A program made the position numbers and the translations under genes. From positions 1 to 24,137 of the IMG/VR virus record IMGVR_UViG_3300046820_001642: a stretch of DNA of 24,137 nt, one strand, 5' to 3'. The number at the start of each line of letters is the position of its first letter. Positions within the stretch are counted from its first letter, which is position 1. Below, one piece after another: positions 1-22,008 of the stretch. The notes below the pieces were generated by a model. It had not been told where the DNA came from. It saw only the letters and a list, made by a program, of their open reading frames with translations, and did not search any database. Origin of the DNA: a virus.

Positions 1-618
1 TGTTCTAACTCTTCCAGAATCACAACTTAAAAAGTTACCAACATCTTTTGAGTTTATAAACACATATTCTTCGTTGTTTAATATATCAATGACCTTTAGG
101 TGTTTTTTGCTATTAGAAATCCTTTGTTTCATCAACCATTCATCATTTTTAAATTTACCACCATAGTTAGGATTATTTTCACCACTTGATCTTTCAGAAA
201 TTTTAAGTTTACTTTCTTCTGAGTGTTTTTTACCGTAAAAATGATTATTAACCCCAGATGCTTTTTGAGACATAATTTTTTTAGTTTCTTCTGACAAAAC
301 TTTTTTTTGTGTATCAGTTTTTGTTAAAAAGCAATTTAAACCTTCATTCACCGAATTAAAATGTTCTTGCCAAAATCTTTCTCTTTGGAGGAGTTCGTCT
401 ACATCGCAATATTCAATAATTTCAATTTTATGGTTTTCAACAGAGTGTTTAATTAAAGAGTTGTAAATACCTCGTTGTTTTTTGATCCTGTTAGGTGTTA
501 AATAAAAAGAGCAACGAACTCGCAAATCTTCCGCTTCACCGATATAAACTTTATCGGTTGGGGATGTAATTTTATAAATCCCTGGTTTATTTGGAAAATT
601 TTTGATTGTTTCTAACAT
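1..618 (-). CDS. GIY-YIG homing endonuclease with NUMOD motifs (3' end outside window)
   Basis: The frame is open for 206 codons from the ATG at 618 to the window edge, so the C-terminus is missing. The N-terminus is a GIY-YIG nuclease domain: GIY at residues 13-15, YIG at 25-27, R35 in the usual arginine position and a glutamate near E80 (LLQRERFW) as the likely metal ligand. Two NUMOD3-like repeats follow at about residues 119-160 (GVNNHFYGKKHSEESK and GENNPNYGGKF), then a NUMOD1-like helix-turn-helix stretch from about residue 175 (VIDILNNEEYVF...SKDVGNFL). This is the standard plan of free-standing phage homing endonucleases, which cut a DNA site to copy themselves. The ATG overlaps the stop of the preceding gene by one base (TAATG), so it sits as a cassette behind the YkuD-like gene. 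Family assignment is firm; the target site is unknown. Confidence 0.9.
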   Translation of the reverse strand, partial: MLETIKNFPNKPGIYKITSPTDKVYIGEAEDLRVRCSFYLTPNRIKKQRGIYNSLIKHSVENHKIEIIEYCDVDELLQRERFWQEHFNSVNEGLNCFLTKTDTQKKVLSEETKKIMSQKASGVNNHFYGKKHSEESKLKISERSSGENNPNYGGKFKNDEWLMKQRISNSKKHLKVIDILNNEEYVFINSKDVGNFLSCDSGRVRT

Positions 619-17210: not shown

Positions 17211-17562
17211 GGTGTTTATTACATAATGTTTTATACCAACCTACAAGTCTTAACTCTCCTTTTTCTCCACAGGTCTCACAAATCTCATAACTTTGATTTT
17301 CATATGAGTGTATTTTTTTAAAAATTTCATCAGATCCAGTATTGATGTAAAATCTTAACGCACCAAACTTTTCTTTGACCTGACAAGTTTGTTTGTCCCA
17401 ACCTAACTCTATTAGATCGGTTATTAGATCCTTAATTAGTGGAAACCAACCATTCCCACATTGAAAGAACTTAGAGTCTTTAATTGGATCTCTATCGGGA
17501 TAGAATCCATTCTCAAGTCCACCAATGGATTCCAAAAACTCATTCATTTCTTCTTTAGTCAT
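17179..17562 (-). CDS. Conserved phage protein with C-terminal zinc-binding Cys pairs
   Basis: The 127-aa protein has the segment GNGWFPLIKDLITDLIELGW and QVKEKFGALRFYI, then a Cys-rich end, CETCGEKGEL...TLCNKHH, which looks like a small zinc site. I recognise the W..LI..L...QVKEKFG.LRFY...ICE.CG pattern from phage genomes; function unknown. It starts eight bases inside the end of the HAD gene. Confidence 0.8.
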   Translation of the reverse strand: MTKEEMNEFLESIGGLENGFYPDRDPIKDSKFFQCGNGWFPLIKDLITDLIELGWDKQTCQVKEKFGALRFYINTGSDEIFKKIHSYENQSYEICETCGEKGELRLVGWYKTLCNKHHEEHKTNIQN

Positions 17563-18154
17563 CTTTCAAAAATTTTAATATTTTTTCTTTAATACCACTT
17601 TGTTTGATTCCCTCTCTTGATCTCGGTGTTAATACGAAATTAGATAAACCAGGATTTTTACTATCGTCTTCCTCACTTGAGAAATATTTGGATAAAAATT
17701 CAGGACTCATGTTCAAGTCATCAACCGCAACCCAATGAGTTACTTCAGGATGGTTTTCCAACCAATGTCCTATCTCCATACTTCTTTCTAATTCTAATTC
17801 AGCGCGAAATCTAAATGCGTTCCATTCCTTAGGGAATACATCTTTGAATTGGTCTGTAACTGCGATTGGTCGTTTTATGATACCTTGACTCTCGTAGTAA
17901 TCCCCAAGTTCCTCCAAGTTCGCATGTAGTCTCCAGTCAGAGCTTACAACGATCTCAGCACCTGTTTCTTCAAGTATTTTGTTTAATACCTTAACAGCAC
18001 CCTTATCGAAGTCATCAAAGCGTGTATGAACTGGTCGGTCTGTAAATTCAACATCAGGATTATCTTTATGAAAATTTGGCCATTTCACTGCTCTTCCACC
18101 CCAATTATTTGAGAGGCAGATTACACCATCATTATCTAAGAATAAAACTTTCAT
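17555..18154 (-). CDS. HAD-superfamily phosphatase, RNA-repair type
   Basis: The 199-aa protein has the HAD motifs in order: motif I FLDNDGV with nucleophile D7 and D9, motif II VVSSDWR with S71/S72, R124 in the position of the motif III basic residue, and motif IV WVAVDDLN with D145/D146. The compact form with SSDWR and EIGHWLENHPEVTHWVAVDD resembles the HAD domain named for Swiss-army-knife RNA repair proteins. Such enzymes remove phosphates; a 3'-phosphate or 2',3'-cyclic phosphate end of cleaved RNA is the likely substrate, though other small phosphatases share the motifs. An RNA ligase and a cREC protein lie within 5 kb. A Bacteroidota-type promoter candidate lies about 47 bases before the ATG. 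Confidence 0.83.
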   Translation of the reverse strand: MKVLFLDNDGVICLSNNWGGRAVKWPNFHKDNPDVEFTDRPVHTRFDDFDKGAVKVLNKILEETGAEIVVSSDWRLHANLEELGDYYESQGIIKRPIAVTDQFKDVFPKEWNAFRFRAELELERSMEIGHWLENHPEVTHWVAVDDLNMSPEFLSKYFSSEEDDSKNPGLSNFVLTPRSREGIKQSGIKEKILKFLKDD

Positions 18155-18225
18155 CTTTTAAGTTTTTGGTTTTTTTTGACAACTGCTAATAATATTACTA
18201 CAAATATAAATAAAATTCCCCACAT
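18151..18225 (-). CDS. Possible 24-aa membrane peptide
   Basis: The frame MWGILFIFVVILLAVVKKNQ plus four residues ends with ATGA overlapping the HAD start. One hydrophobic span is followed by a basic tail, like the 34-aa peptide at 16484-16588. Against it, a promoter candidate (18201-18232) overlaps its start, so transcripts from that promoter would not include the whole frame, and a terminator lies just upstream. It may be translated only from read-through, or be an upstream leader by chance. Confidence 0.4.
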   Translation of the reverse strand: MWGILFIFVVILLAVVKKNQKLKR

Positions 18226-18232
18226 ATACAAA
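18201..18232 (-). promoter_or_regulatory. Promoter candidate, TTTG-N20-TATATTTG (Bacteroidota type)
   Basis: On the minus strand TTTG (18232-18229) lies 20 bases before TATATTTG (18208-18201), an exact match to the Bacteroidota -33/-7 consensus TTTG/TAnnTTTG. Read in the other way it is TTGTAT-N17-TATATT. It comes 25 bases after the terminator at 18252-18283 and would start the HAD transcript with a leader of roughly 40 bases. Confidence 0.65.
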
Positions 18233-18251
18233 TAATAGAGGTTTATGTAAA

Positions 18252-18283
18252 ATAGAAAAGGGGGAGTAGCGAATTCCCCCTTT
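18252..18283 (-). terminator. Terminator downstream of the hairpin gap
   Basis: AAAGGGGGA (18283-18275 read on the minus strand) pairs with TCCCCCTTT (18265-18257) in a perfect nine-base-pair stem with a nine-base loop, and TTTTCTATTTT follows on the minus strand. It ends the transcript that carries the gene at 18551-18985 and the hairpins beyond it. Confidence 0.85.
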
Positions 18284-18287
18284 CAAT

Positions 18288-18370
18288 CGTTACCCTAACG
18301 GATAACGGTCCTAAAAGCCCACCACTAAGGATGGGGTCTTTTAAAAACCCCCACCACAAGGATGGGGGTT
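18288..18370 (-). ncRNA. Structured gap: tandem hairpins with a shared loop (possible RNA element)
   Basis: Two hairpins stand side by side. Hairpin B (18346-18370) pairs AACCCCCA with TGGGGGTT; inside, CC/GG encloses ACAA with one bulged A. Hairpin A (18313-18342) pairs AAAAG with CTTTT and CCCA with TGGG, with the same inner CC/GG and bulged A around ACTAA. The outer stems differ in sequence but the inner part CCAC(T)AAGGAT is conserved, which suggests selection for the RNA shape. A third, small perfect hairpin CGTTA-CCC-TAACG (18288-18300) follows, with the TAACGG repeated just before it. All lie between a gene end and the terminator, so they would be the 3' untranslated region of the 18551-18985 transcript, or a small RNA processed from it. 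No known RNA family was recognised. Confidence 0.5.
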
Positions 18371-18550
18371 CATATGATTTGTTTCAAGAGCCAAAAATAG
18401 GTTAAAAAGAGAGTTTTAAGTTTTAATCAAATGACTTTTGAGTATTTGAAATTTCGTTTAATGTCAGTTCGTTATCTTTATCAATTATCCATCCAGTCGG
18501 ATTCCGATAGTAGAACAACCATCACTTTCTAACCCTATCCACAAACCATA
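18371..18550. other. Gene-free stretch with a weak 31-codon frame
   Basis: No ATG-started gene of convincing length is seen. On the minus strand a frame from a TTG at 18518 to the TAA at 18423 reads naturally at its end (WIIDKDNELTLNEISNTQ...), and an overlapping frame just before it is also open (YGLWIGLESDGC). This could be the decayed or frameshifted tail of a small gene, or untranslated RNA leading into the hairpins. I see no promoter in it. Confidence 0.3.
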
Positions 18551-18985
18551 TTAAATTTCTGTGGTTGCGTTGAAGGTGTCCAACTTATCTTGGATCTCTT
18601 CAATTTTTGATTCCAACATTTTGATCTCTTGGTTTCTATTAACCAAAGAGATTTCGGAGGTTAAAACCATTTCACTTTCCATTCGGAAACGTTCACGACT
18701 TGATTTTCCTTCTGTGCAATCCATTTTCTTTAAGGATGCGATTGTTGATTTCATTTCTGACATCCAAAAGATGTCTCCCATTACAGGTGTGTTTGCGATG
18801 TGGATTTTCGCCTTCAAAGATGCTAACTCTTGTGTTTCTCTTTGGATTTGATTATACAACACCACTGTGCTGTATGGTCTTTGGTTTCCAACCTCAGTTG
18901 AGTTGAATTGTTGCATCAACTTCGTGTTTTCGGCAATGTTTTTAACCAGTTTGTTTTTCTGTTTAAGTGCTTGTTTAATTGTCAT
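18551..18985 (-). CDS. DIP1984-like coiled-coil protein
   Basis: The 144-aa protein is helical: IKQALKQKNKLVKNIAENTKL, then ELASLKAKIHIANTPV and a C-terminal segment MLESKIEEIQDKLDTFNATT. The layout (opening helical repeat, I.R/KI..AN, then EI...N..I..L...I..IQ..LD..N..T) resembles the DIP1984/septicolysin-like family found in bacteria and phages, function unknown. A strong sigma70-like promoter lies 15 to 20 bases upstream of its start, and a 565-base stretch with no certain gene ends at the HAD start, so this gene is probably transcribed alone with a long structured 3' end. Confidence 0.65.
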   Translation of the reverse strand: MTIKQALKQKNKLVKNIAENTKLMQQFNSTEVGNQRPYSTVVLYNQIQRETQELASLKAKIHIANTPVMGDIFWMSEMKSTIASLKKMDCTEGKSSRERFRMESEMVLTSEISLVNRNQEIKMLESKIEEIQDKLDTFNATTEI

Positions 18986-19005: not shown

Positions 19006-19034
19006 AGTATAAATAATTTTTTTTATTTGGTCAA
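19006..19034 (-). promoter_or_regulatory. Promoter candidate, TTGACC-N17-TATACT
   Basis: On the minus strand TTGACC (19034-19029) and TATACT (19011-19006) are exactly 17 bases apart, a near-consensus sigma70-type promoter. The ATG at 18985 follows 20 bases after the -10 box, giving a short A-rich leader. The -35 box overlaps the last codons of the 55-aa lipoprotein gene. Confidence 0.7.
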
Positions 19035-19190
19035 TCGGATTGTGTCGACTGCGTAATAACAATAACTTTCTTCATCAATATGACAGTGTTCTACTTTTAT
19101 CTCATATGACGAATATGCGTCACAGTTACTTTTTGATGTTTTACAACTTGATAGTAATATCAATCCAATAATTAAACTAAACTTCTTCAT
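19023..19190 (-). CDS. 55-aa lipoprotein
   Basis: The frame starts MKKFSLIIGLILLSSC with a clear lipobox (LLSSC, cysteine 16) and continues with a 39-residue mature part containing four further cysteines (SNCDAYSSYEIKVEHCHIDE, then SYCYY). The start overlaps the stop of the upstream membrane gene by four bases (ATGA). It is too short for ordinary length cut-offs but the signal and the coupling are convincing. A surface or periplasmic role such as superinfection exclusion is possible; nothing else shows it. Confidence 0.78.
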   Translation of the reverse strand: MKKFSLIIGLILLSSCKTSKSNCDAYSSYEIKVEHCHIDEESYCYYAVDTIRLTK

Positions 19191-19339
19191 TTTATAAATC
19201 TTAAATAATAAACCTCACATAATAATAACATCGCCATAGTTGACATTACAAAACTCAAAACATCATTAACATAAAATGTTCCTCCCATTACAAATAATAA
19301 TATTAAAAATAATGGTAAATAATAAATTCCTTTTTTCAT
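19187..19339 (-). CDS. 50-aa two-span membrane protein
   Basis: The frame starts MKKGIYYLPLFLILLFVMGG (span 1) and has a second hydrophobic segment, SFVMSTMAMLLLCEVYYL (span 2), ending in FIK. It is joined by ATGA overlaps to the AAA+ gene upstream and the lipoprotein downstream. Short two-span phage proteins can be holins; no lysis gene is adjacent, so this stays open. Confidence 0.68.
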   Translation of the reverse strand: MKKGIYYLPLFLILLFVMGGTFYVNDVLSFVMSTMAMLLLCEVYYLRFIK

Positions 19340-20873: not shown

Positions 20874-20890
20874 GTTAATGGGAATCACCT
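20852..20890 (-). terminator. Terminator overlapping the RNA ligase stop codon
   Basis: On the minus strand AGGTGA pairs with TCACCT (20890-20885 with 20864-20859) and CCCAT with ATGGG inside it, with a small internal loop; TTTTTTTATT follows. The last codons and the stop of the RNA ligase gene lie inside the hairpin. Confidence 0.85.
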
Positions 20891-22008
20891 ACGTTATTTT
20901 TTTCTCCGTAGATCAAGTAATCAGGATTAATAACTTTACCAACTTTGTAACGCTCACCATTAACATGTTTTACAACAACACCTTCGTGTGGAACTTTAGT
21001 TCCCATGATAAAGTTATTGAATACGTGTTTATCTTGCTCATTTTTAGACCATTGTCCTAAATAAAGAACAGGAACTCTTGGTAAGTCTAATATCTCAAAG
21101 AGATGTTTTTCATCATGGTATGGTAAGTATTTACCGTTCAACTCAACGTCAAAACCAGCAAATAAAATATCTTCAAGTCCGTAGTTGTAATTTTTTTGGA
21201 TTCCATGACCGTAGATCTCACCGTAGATTATCAAACCATCACCCAAGTATTCTTCAGATGCAAATGTTTTAACAAACTTCCATAGTTTATTTTTGATTTC
21301 GTAATTATCCGCTATTGTTCTCCAAACGTCGGTGGAATAAAACCCTTGAGAATCAGAACCTTTTTCAACGTTGTGAGATCCGTAAACATACTCATACCCA
21401 ACCCATTTAACTCCGAACAATTTTTTAACTCGATCTAATAATGAAAGTTTTTTCTTTCTTACAATACCATAACGAGCATTAGTTCCGTGAAGTTTACGAG
21501 TGATTGTAACTAAGTCCTCTTCATTAAACATTTCAGGAGCATTCTTCAAGTTAGGAAACTTGTGGTAAACATGGAAGTTAGGGTTTTGGTGATATTTGAA
21601 CTTTCTACCTCCAACACTCATTTCAACCATCTTAACCGGTGGTTCGTACTTAGTAACACCCAAGATACCCATCATATCGTGACCTTCACTTACATTGTTC
21701 TCCAAAGATTTTGGTGCTAAATATTTGAATGGTATTAGTAAACACTCAGAGTAAACTCCACGTAATTTCACAGTTCTAACTCTCTGCCCTTTTCTCAAGT
21801 ATCCAGTCACTCCCATTAAATCAGATAACTCAACAGGGATTACCGCATCAGTAGTTGCAACAACAACCTTATCACCTACACTGTATTCACCTTTCTTGGT
21901 GATTGCTTGCCAACCACCAACCATAGCAAGTTCGATGTTATCTGCCCCTTCTATTGGTCGGATCTCACCGATCACACCAACATAACATACACTATTTAAA
22001 TTTTCCAT
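20875..22008 (-). CDS. ATP-dependent RNA ligase, Rnl5/DRB0094 type
   Basis: The 377-aa protein has an N-terminal OB-like domain (about 1-120, with VVVATTDAVIPVE and GVYSECLLIPF) and a C-terminal ligase domain. Motif I is KLHG with nucleophile K172 (ITRKLHGTNAR), motif III IYGEIYG at 261-267, motif IV EGVVVK at 342-347 and motif V YKVGK at 354-358. The N-terminal OB domain before the ligase domain is the hallmark of the DRB0094/Rnl5 group, which seals 3'-OH/5'-phosphate nicks in RNA. In phages it could repair tRNA or other RNA cut by host defence. It ends in a terminator that overlaps its stop. Confidence 0.92.
   Translation of the reverse strand: MENLNSVCYVGVIGEIRPIEGADNIELAMVGGWQAITKKGEYSVGDKVVVATTDAVIPVELSDLMGVTGYLRKGQRVRTVKLRGVYSECLLIPFKYLAPKSLENNVSEGHDMMGILGVTKYEPPVKMVEMSVGGRKFKYHQNPNFHVYHKFPNLKNAPEMFNEEDLVTITRKLHGTNARYGIVRKKKLSLLDRVKKLFGVKWVGYEYVYGSHNVEKGSDSQGFYSTDVWRTIADNYEIKNKLWKFVKTFASEEYLGDGLIIYGEIYGHGIQKNYNYGLEDILFAGFDVELNGKYLPYHDEKHLFEILDLPRVPVLYLGQWSKNEQDKHVFNNFIMGTKVPHEGVVVKHVNGERYKVGKVINPDYLIYGEKNNVGDSH

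Follow-up and report, generated by a model that had tools for sequence, protein, structure and literature searches.

A small structured RNA of large phages with complementarity to helix 69 of bacterial 23S rRNA

The window analysed here comprises the whole of IMG/VR record IMGVR_UViG_3300046820_001642 (24,137 bases), probably a genome fragment, and carries a conserved structured phage RNA of about 90 nucleotides on its minus strand, at 18256-18345. Conservation, structure and strand are established by computation, as is complementarity to 23S rRNA across unrelated scaffolds. We consider it probable, at roughly 0.6, that the block encodes a small phage RNA which pairs with the 23S rRNA of the host to block or commandeer host ribosomes. 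The same confidence is given to the wider statement that large phages of several bacterial groups each carry one such small structured RNA, built on one of several scaffolds, which would pair with helix 69-70 in an antisense attack or as a guard.

A conserved RNA in the main noncoding gap

According to the ORF list, the long genes of the window all lie on the minus strand, with the exception of one lysozyme-like gene near the left end. The hairpin block is situated between an upstream gene (18551-18985, minus) and a downstream HAD-like gene (17555-18154, minus). Since its neighbours are all minus-strand genes, the block is to be read on that strand, where the RNA lies about 200 nucleotides past the stop codon of the upstream gene. 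The original prediction placed the block in the only large gap of the window, and this is correct: 18226-18550 is the main noncoding gap, because the other apparent gap is occupied by two small ORFs, one lipoprotein-like of 55 amino acids (19023-19190, minus) and one membrane-type of 50 amino acids (19187-19339, minus). A further small ORF of 24 amino acids, MWGILFIFVVILLAVVKKNQKLKR (18151-18225, minus), is membrane-type with a basic end, and its stop codon and the HAD-like start codon overlap in ATGA. About 15 relatives keep it in versions of 24-27 amino acids; it is considered here as context only. An RNA ligase encoded near the block (20875-22008, minus; phrog_968, E 8e-63) might bear on RNA repair during infection.

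Along the minus strand the block consists of the hairpin AACCCCCAUCCUUGUGGUGGGGGUU with a U-run (18370-18343), the hairpin AAAAGACCCCAUCCUUAGUGGUGGGCUUUU (18342-18313), AGGACC, P2 (18307-18288) and GGGGGAAUUCGCUACUCCCCCUUUU (18280-18256), and every one of these hairpins folds in computation. The 5' end of the RNA is at about 18345, and its 3' end is the U-tract of the terminator (18256-18259). The P1 hairpin (18313-18342) is found in most members, with variable sequence and loop. A single-stranded linker, UUUAGGACC, connects P1 to P2, the CGUUA hairpin CGUUAUCC-GUUA-GGGUAACG (18288-18307), which has a folding energy of -11.2 kcal/mol. P3 (18256-18280) is an intrinsic terminator hairpin, GGGGGA..UCCCCC followed by UUUU, and displays the invariant loop UUCGCUAC. 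The RNA of the window is structured and intergenic and ends in a GC hairpin with a U-run, as does an sRNA with an intrinsic terminator. The covariance model R1 matches the window at 18242-18348 (minus) with 93 bits and E 2e-18; the window RNA is a member of R1 by construction. A promoter of the Bacteroidota type was considered for the RNA and rejected, as its sole match lies downstream and is at the level of chance.

The original prediction rested on two adjacent hairpins, 18313-18342 and 18346-18370, whose common loop core was taken as the mark of selected RNA structure, possibly of a stable small RNA. Both hairpins exist and form on either strand. The segment 18344-18376 folds with -17.9 kcal/mol on the minus strand (z -3.0) and -16.2 kcal/mol on the plus strand, and 18308-18345 with -11.7 kcal/mol on the minus strand (z -1.6). 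For the whole block z is -3.7 (minus) and -4.2 (plus), and none of 200 shuffles is equally stable. The small CGTTA hairpin at 18288-18307 is also real, as is the predicted terminator (GGGGG/CCCCC, 18256-18280). The likeness of the two cores, CCATCCTT(A)GTGGTGG, is however confined to this window. In relatives, the hairpin at 18313-18342 keeps its position and changes its sequence and loop, and the more upstream hairpin at 18346-18370 is in many of them swapped for an unrelated hairpin or missing. This upstream hairpin resembles an intrinsic terminator (U-tail 18343-18347), falls outside the RNA family and probably ends the upstream transcript. The two-hairpin core is thus ruled out as a conserved unit, and the notion of a selected loop core common to the pair can hardly be credited at all. 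Matches of the 16-mer hairpin core in viral contigs were mostly chance or coding; the informative ones had UUUUAGGACCGUUAUCC downstream. Across relatives, conservation falls on the linker, on the CGTTA hairpin and on the loop of the terminator. It is the neighbouring terminator hairpin that combines a fixed loop with changing stems, the feature claimed for the wrong pair: its loop UUCGCUAC is held by a stem with compensatory changes in 8 of 8 pairs.

Further copies in related phages, on which the original prediction staked itself, abound. The block is carried by contigs that were chosen through their proteins alone (the HAD gene; an AAA+ ATPase). When these contigs were combined with the loci from the viral-contig search with the hairpin core, nhmmer (E <1e-6) found the block in 47 loci, representing 24 distinct sequences with the window included, and the sequence is nearly constant from UUUAGGACC through the terminator. 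Searched over whole protein-chosen records, model R1 finds the RNA in 11 of 22, a few of them near-duplicates, with new forms of P2 such as UUAGGACCGGUAUAGUUACG and CUUAGGACCGAUAUUGCUACGG, followed by the loops UUCGCUAC or UCGCUACC. Matches of 18-23 bits in the inspected records were plain terminators and were rejected as members. A strict pattern occurs in at least 84 viral contigs and is absent from 84,980 bacterial and archaeal genomes. A relaxed bipartite pattern, in which the two conserved words are fixed, P2 is unconstrained and the known class is left out, occurs in at least 120 viral contigs, compared with 20 for the reversed pattern. Among the relaxed matches listed, 75 are distinct; nearly all of these show UUCGCUAC in a hairpin loop on differing stems, and many have scaffolds unlike that of the window. 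As the patterns fix the conserved bases, the invariance of the words within the pattern-found sets is partly the result of selection by the search, and independent evidence for conservation comes from the protein-chosen sets and the free positions only. All 20 of the large contigs examined (46-304 kb) contain the RNA once, and in several related large phages no copy was found. Rfam 15 contains no family matching the window, none near its gathering score in 18200-18450, and none that matches the 11 tested loci with other scaffolds. Single RNAs compared with named phages by BLAST gave no useful match because the conserved words are short.

The structure itself varies in the manner of a selected fold. 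In an alignment of 74 distinct terminator-type RNAs (A1), 90.5% of the cells pair, and two-sided changes number 130 cells compared with 33.5 after shuffling. The covariation score of P2 and P3 is 0.448, compared with 0.235 for shuffled alignments and at most 0.225 when the partners are slid. P3 has 89% of its cells paired around the invariant loop. P2 shows compensated variation past its first three bases, including compensatory changes at the column pair 67-83. A small, structured and probably stable phage RNA under selection is strongly supported.

Complementarity to 23S rRNA

A resemblance of the conserved words to the I-CeuI site of 23S rRNA was the lead for a comparison with E. coli rrlH. 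The most constant segments of the RNA, UUAGGRCCGUU and UUCGCUAC, are exact complements of bacterial 23S 1918-1928 and 1930-1937. The two targets adjoin each other in helix 69 and the strand that follows, the region of bridge B2a; in the antisense of 23S 1918-1937, the two invariant words follow each other with a single base between them. Very different bacteria, Prevotella among them, have an identical target. In the window, antisense segment 1, UUAGGACCGUUAU (18302-18314, minus), is complementary by 13 Watson-Crick pairs to E. coli 23S 1916-1928, the 3' side of helix 69 and the linker that follows. This is the longest Watson-Crick run between the window RNA and the 23S rRNA of rrlH, and the match reaches 15 nucleotides with G-U pairs allowed. 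Antisense segment 2 is the P3 loop (18266-18273, minus), complementary to 1930-1937, and the P2 loop GUUA is complementary to 1911-1914 in the loop of helix 69. The base opposite U1915, which is m3Psi in E. coli, is mismatched in the window RNA.

UUAGG.CCGUU is invariant in A1. The position opposite U1923, which the patterns leave free, is A or G in every one of the class A RNAs (52 of 52) and, among the relaxed matches listed, in 75 of 76; the remaining one (L457) resembles a chance match. Complementarity to 23S is conserved and is kept through wobble-compatible changes, and pairing with this target would directly explain the invariant bases. By arithmetic, the chance of two fixed words of 11 and 8 nucleotides adjoining is about 4e-8 in an RNA of 2904 nucleotides and about 1e-4 when an entire genome of 4.6 Mb is considered. 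When the window RNA alone is shuffled with its dinucleotides preserved, 6 of 20000 shuffles reach an equal bipartite match; the fairer question at the level of the family is the adjacency of its two invariant words in 23S, to which the value of about 4e-8 applies. The natural antisense order, UUCGCUACC before UUAGGACC, has no match in the pattern scan. The two segments would therefore have to bind in a permuted, kissing-type arrangement. By duplex energies computed for whole RNAs, helix 69-70 is the top-ranked site for only 14 of 21 RNAs because the GC-rich arms add noise, and this measure was abandoned as a stand-alone test.

The same segments occur in differently built RNAs of cultured phages, namely Pseudomonas phages PA5oct, Paride, MIJ3 and Callisto and Vibrio phages PWH3a-P1 and R16F. 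The Pseudomonas phages have UUAGGACCG ... AUUCGCUACC, located in Paride at 273888-273953 of OR805295.1 and beginning in PA5oct three bases past the stop codon of EST35_0189. The predicted RNA of PA5oct, about 120 nucleotides long, would occupy 115477-115600 (plus) of MK797984. About 0.6 chance matches of the pattern that found PA5oct were expected in the first set of ten genomes, and PA5oct alone is moderate evidence for the word pair; its case is strengthened by the hairpin loop, the extra matching bases, the position and the conservation in relatives. The two Vibrio phages were found by searching with the 23S sequence itself, and only at E=1. In both, the intergenic CCUUGGGACCGUUAUAGUUAUGGC spans 23S 1907-1930 with two departures, each of them a G-U wobble, and is followed by GUCGCUACC; in R16F it lies beside tRNA genes.

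Several other sequences were noted in the analysis. In loci L406, L366 and L503-L509, the AUUCGCUACC hairpin is enclosed in a GCCCAC/GUGGGC-type stem with an AAAGUGRGC end, a quite different scaffold. Staphylococcus phage PG-2021_4 (Sextaecvirus) has at 201-230 (minus) the sequence CCGACGAGGGAUUUCGCUACCUU, whose complementarity to 23S 1927-1949 includes two G-U pairs; it is possibly another independent anti-23S RNA. Enterobacter phage Arya and Hafnia phage TS33, two unrelated phages, share GGAACUUACCCGACAA outside annotated genes (about 201-228), followed by GGUGAU. It has 16 nucleotides complementary to the helix 71 region of 23S, at E about 1, and this match may be due to chance.

Possible action on the ribosome

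Helix 69 and its surroundings make the intersubunit bridge B2a and contact the A- and P-site tRNAs. By combining the structure of the RNA with its complementarity, it is possible to outline how the RNA might act. It would probably derive from the upstream transcript, at the 3' end of the latter, or else from a promoter within the upstream gene, and would stop at its own terminator. In the cell, the single-stranded linker UUUAGGACC would nucleate on 23S 1921-1929, and the linker together with the 5' arm of P2 would pair with 1916-1929. P2 would then open onto helix 69, its loop GUUA pairing with 1911-1914, and the P3 loop UUCGCUAC would kiss 1930-1937. The RNA would act as a clamp on helix 69 and on the strand that follows. 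The most likely target is free or immature 50S, in which the region of helix 69 is exposed. The bound RNA would hinder the joining of 50S to 30S, or the maturation of 50S, and would in this way affect translation, with the phage slowing, holding or re-assigning host ribosomes. As the phage needs ribosomes, plain inhibition would have to come late, remain partial or be limited to a sub-pool. Mutations in helix 69 block translation or 70S formation (PMC1190176), and a synthetic PNA against helix 69 is described as inhibiting E. coli growth (Kulik et al. 2017, as cited in PMC7038079); helix 69 is thus a reachable and sensitive target.

The gene context of the RNA is consistent with an independent element. 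Of 117 cases drawn from 123 distinct RNAs, 106 have their upstream gene on the same strand, and in 93 of these the stop codon of that gene is within about 60 nucleotides, so that the RNA directly follows a same-strand stop codon in the manner of an sRNA derived from a 3' UTR. The upstream genes fall into about 30 unrelated clusters. As the upstream gene changes between phages, this suggests that the RNA, rather than its neighbour, is the conserved unit. A tie to the HAD gene was ruled out, the RNA being on the other strand and elsewhere in L189-191 and having other neighbours in many contigs.

The same context could be produced by a cis-acting 3'-UTR element that tethers 50S subunits to phage mRNAs or protects their 3' ends, given that the RNA so often follows a stop codon on the same strand and does so behind many unrelated genes. 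Such an element would be expected at each important mRNA, yet there is one copy per genome, and the exchange of the upstream gene points to the RNA itself; we regard a role in cis as quite unlikely. Pairing with 23S might also serve protection, with the RNA shielding helix 69-71 from anti-phage or stress nucleases, or preventing the hibernation of subunits. The evidence of complementarity is the same for this explanation, and the host gains by attacking ribosomes during infection, when phages need them; the window phage has an RNA ligase, a repair-type enzyme, and PA5oct-type phages, Paride among them, have the RNA. The predicted pairing would, however, itself block bridge B2a, and the analysis found no toxin or target, so that protection appears unlikely, if less so than a role in cis.

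The RNA might instead be a guide for an enzyme, of the phage or of the host, that modifies, cuts or repairs 23S near 1915-1930. Archaea and eukaryotes have guide RNAs that target rRNA, and we know of no guided enzyme for the phage RNA. Two antisense segments flanking a short target, and an unpaired base opposite U1915 in the window, would suit a guide. The C/D and H/ACA guides (archaeal C/D: PMC4644070) are likewise small RNAs with antisense segments to rRNA; the phage RNA differs from them in its lack of boxes, its permuted antisense order, its occurrence in phages of bacteria and its terminator end. On reading of 18256-18345 (minus), boxes C (RUGAUGA) and D (CUGA) are absent; in place of an ACA box the RNA ends in UUUU, its antisense order is reversed relative to a continuous guide, with no matches to the natural order, and no dedicated protein gene is constantly adjacent. 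A guide is thus very unlikely. Equally improbable is a conserved terminator or RNA element bound by a phage or host protein, its complementarity to 23S being coincidental. The conserved loop does sit in a terminator hairpin, and protein-bound loops are likewise fixed amid changing stems, but coincidence would have to account for an adjacency with a chance of about 4e-8, for the retention of the same two words by unrelated scaffolds and for changes that are compatible with wobble pairing.

Relation to known RNAs and significance

In phage phiKZ, the PHIKZ298 3' UTR gives rise to an RNA of about 100 nucleotides (PMC8545117). It resembles the present RNA in being a stable RNA of a jumbo phage located past a stop codon, with at least two stem-loops of which the last is a terminator (PMC8545117). 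It differs in having neither antisense word and no known target, and was ruled out as a homologue. The anti-helix-69 PNA is also antisense to helix 69, but it is man-made, whereas the phage RNA is natural, structured and bipartite. The ribosome-associated ncRNAs of Haloferax (PMC6104027) are also small RNAs proposed to act on the ribosome, and differ in being archaeal and cellular. The RNA anti-CRISPRs (Racr, PMC10651486) are also phage small RNAs that interfere with a host ribonucleoprotein, and differ in mimicking CRISPR repeats where the present RNA is antisense to rRNA. A literature search of open-licence papers found no such phage anti-23S RNA, and a 2026 review of jumbo phages does not mention 23S rRNA.

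Phages steer host translation with proteins and tRNAs. If the reading of this RNA as a ligand of 23S is true, ribosomes would be controlled in a new way, through base-pairing with that part of the large subunit which is most conserved. The synthetic anti-helix-69 oligomers would then have a counterpart in nature, and a conserved element that many large phages carry without annotation would be accounted for. The cultured phages PA5oct, Paride and Vibrio PWH3a-P1 make this reading testable at once. Paride reportedly grows on dormant cells, and its possession of the RNA raises a possible link to hibernating ribosomes. Many large phages may thus use an RNA to grip the ribosomes of their hosts.
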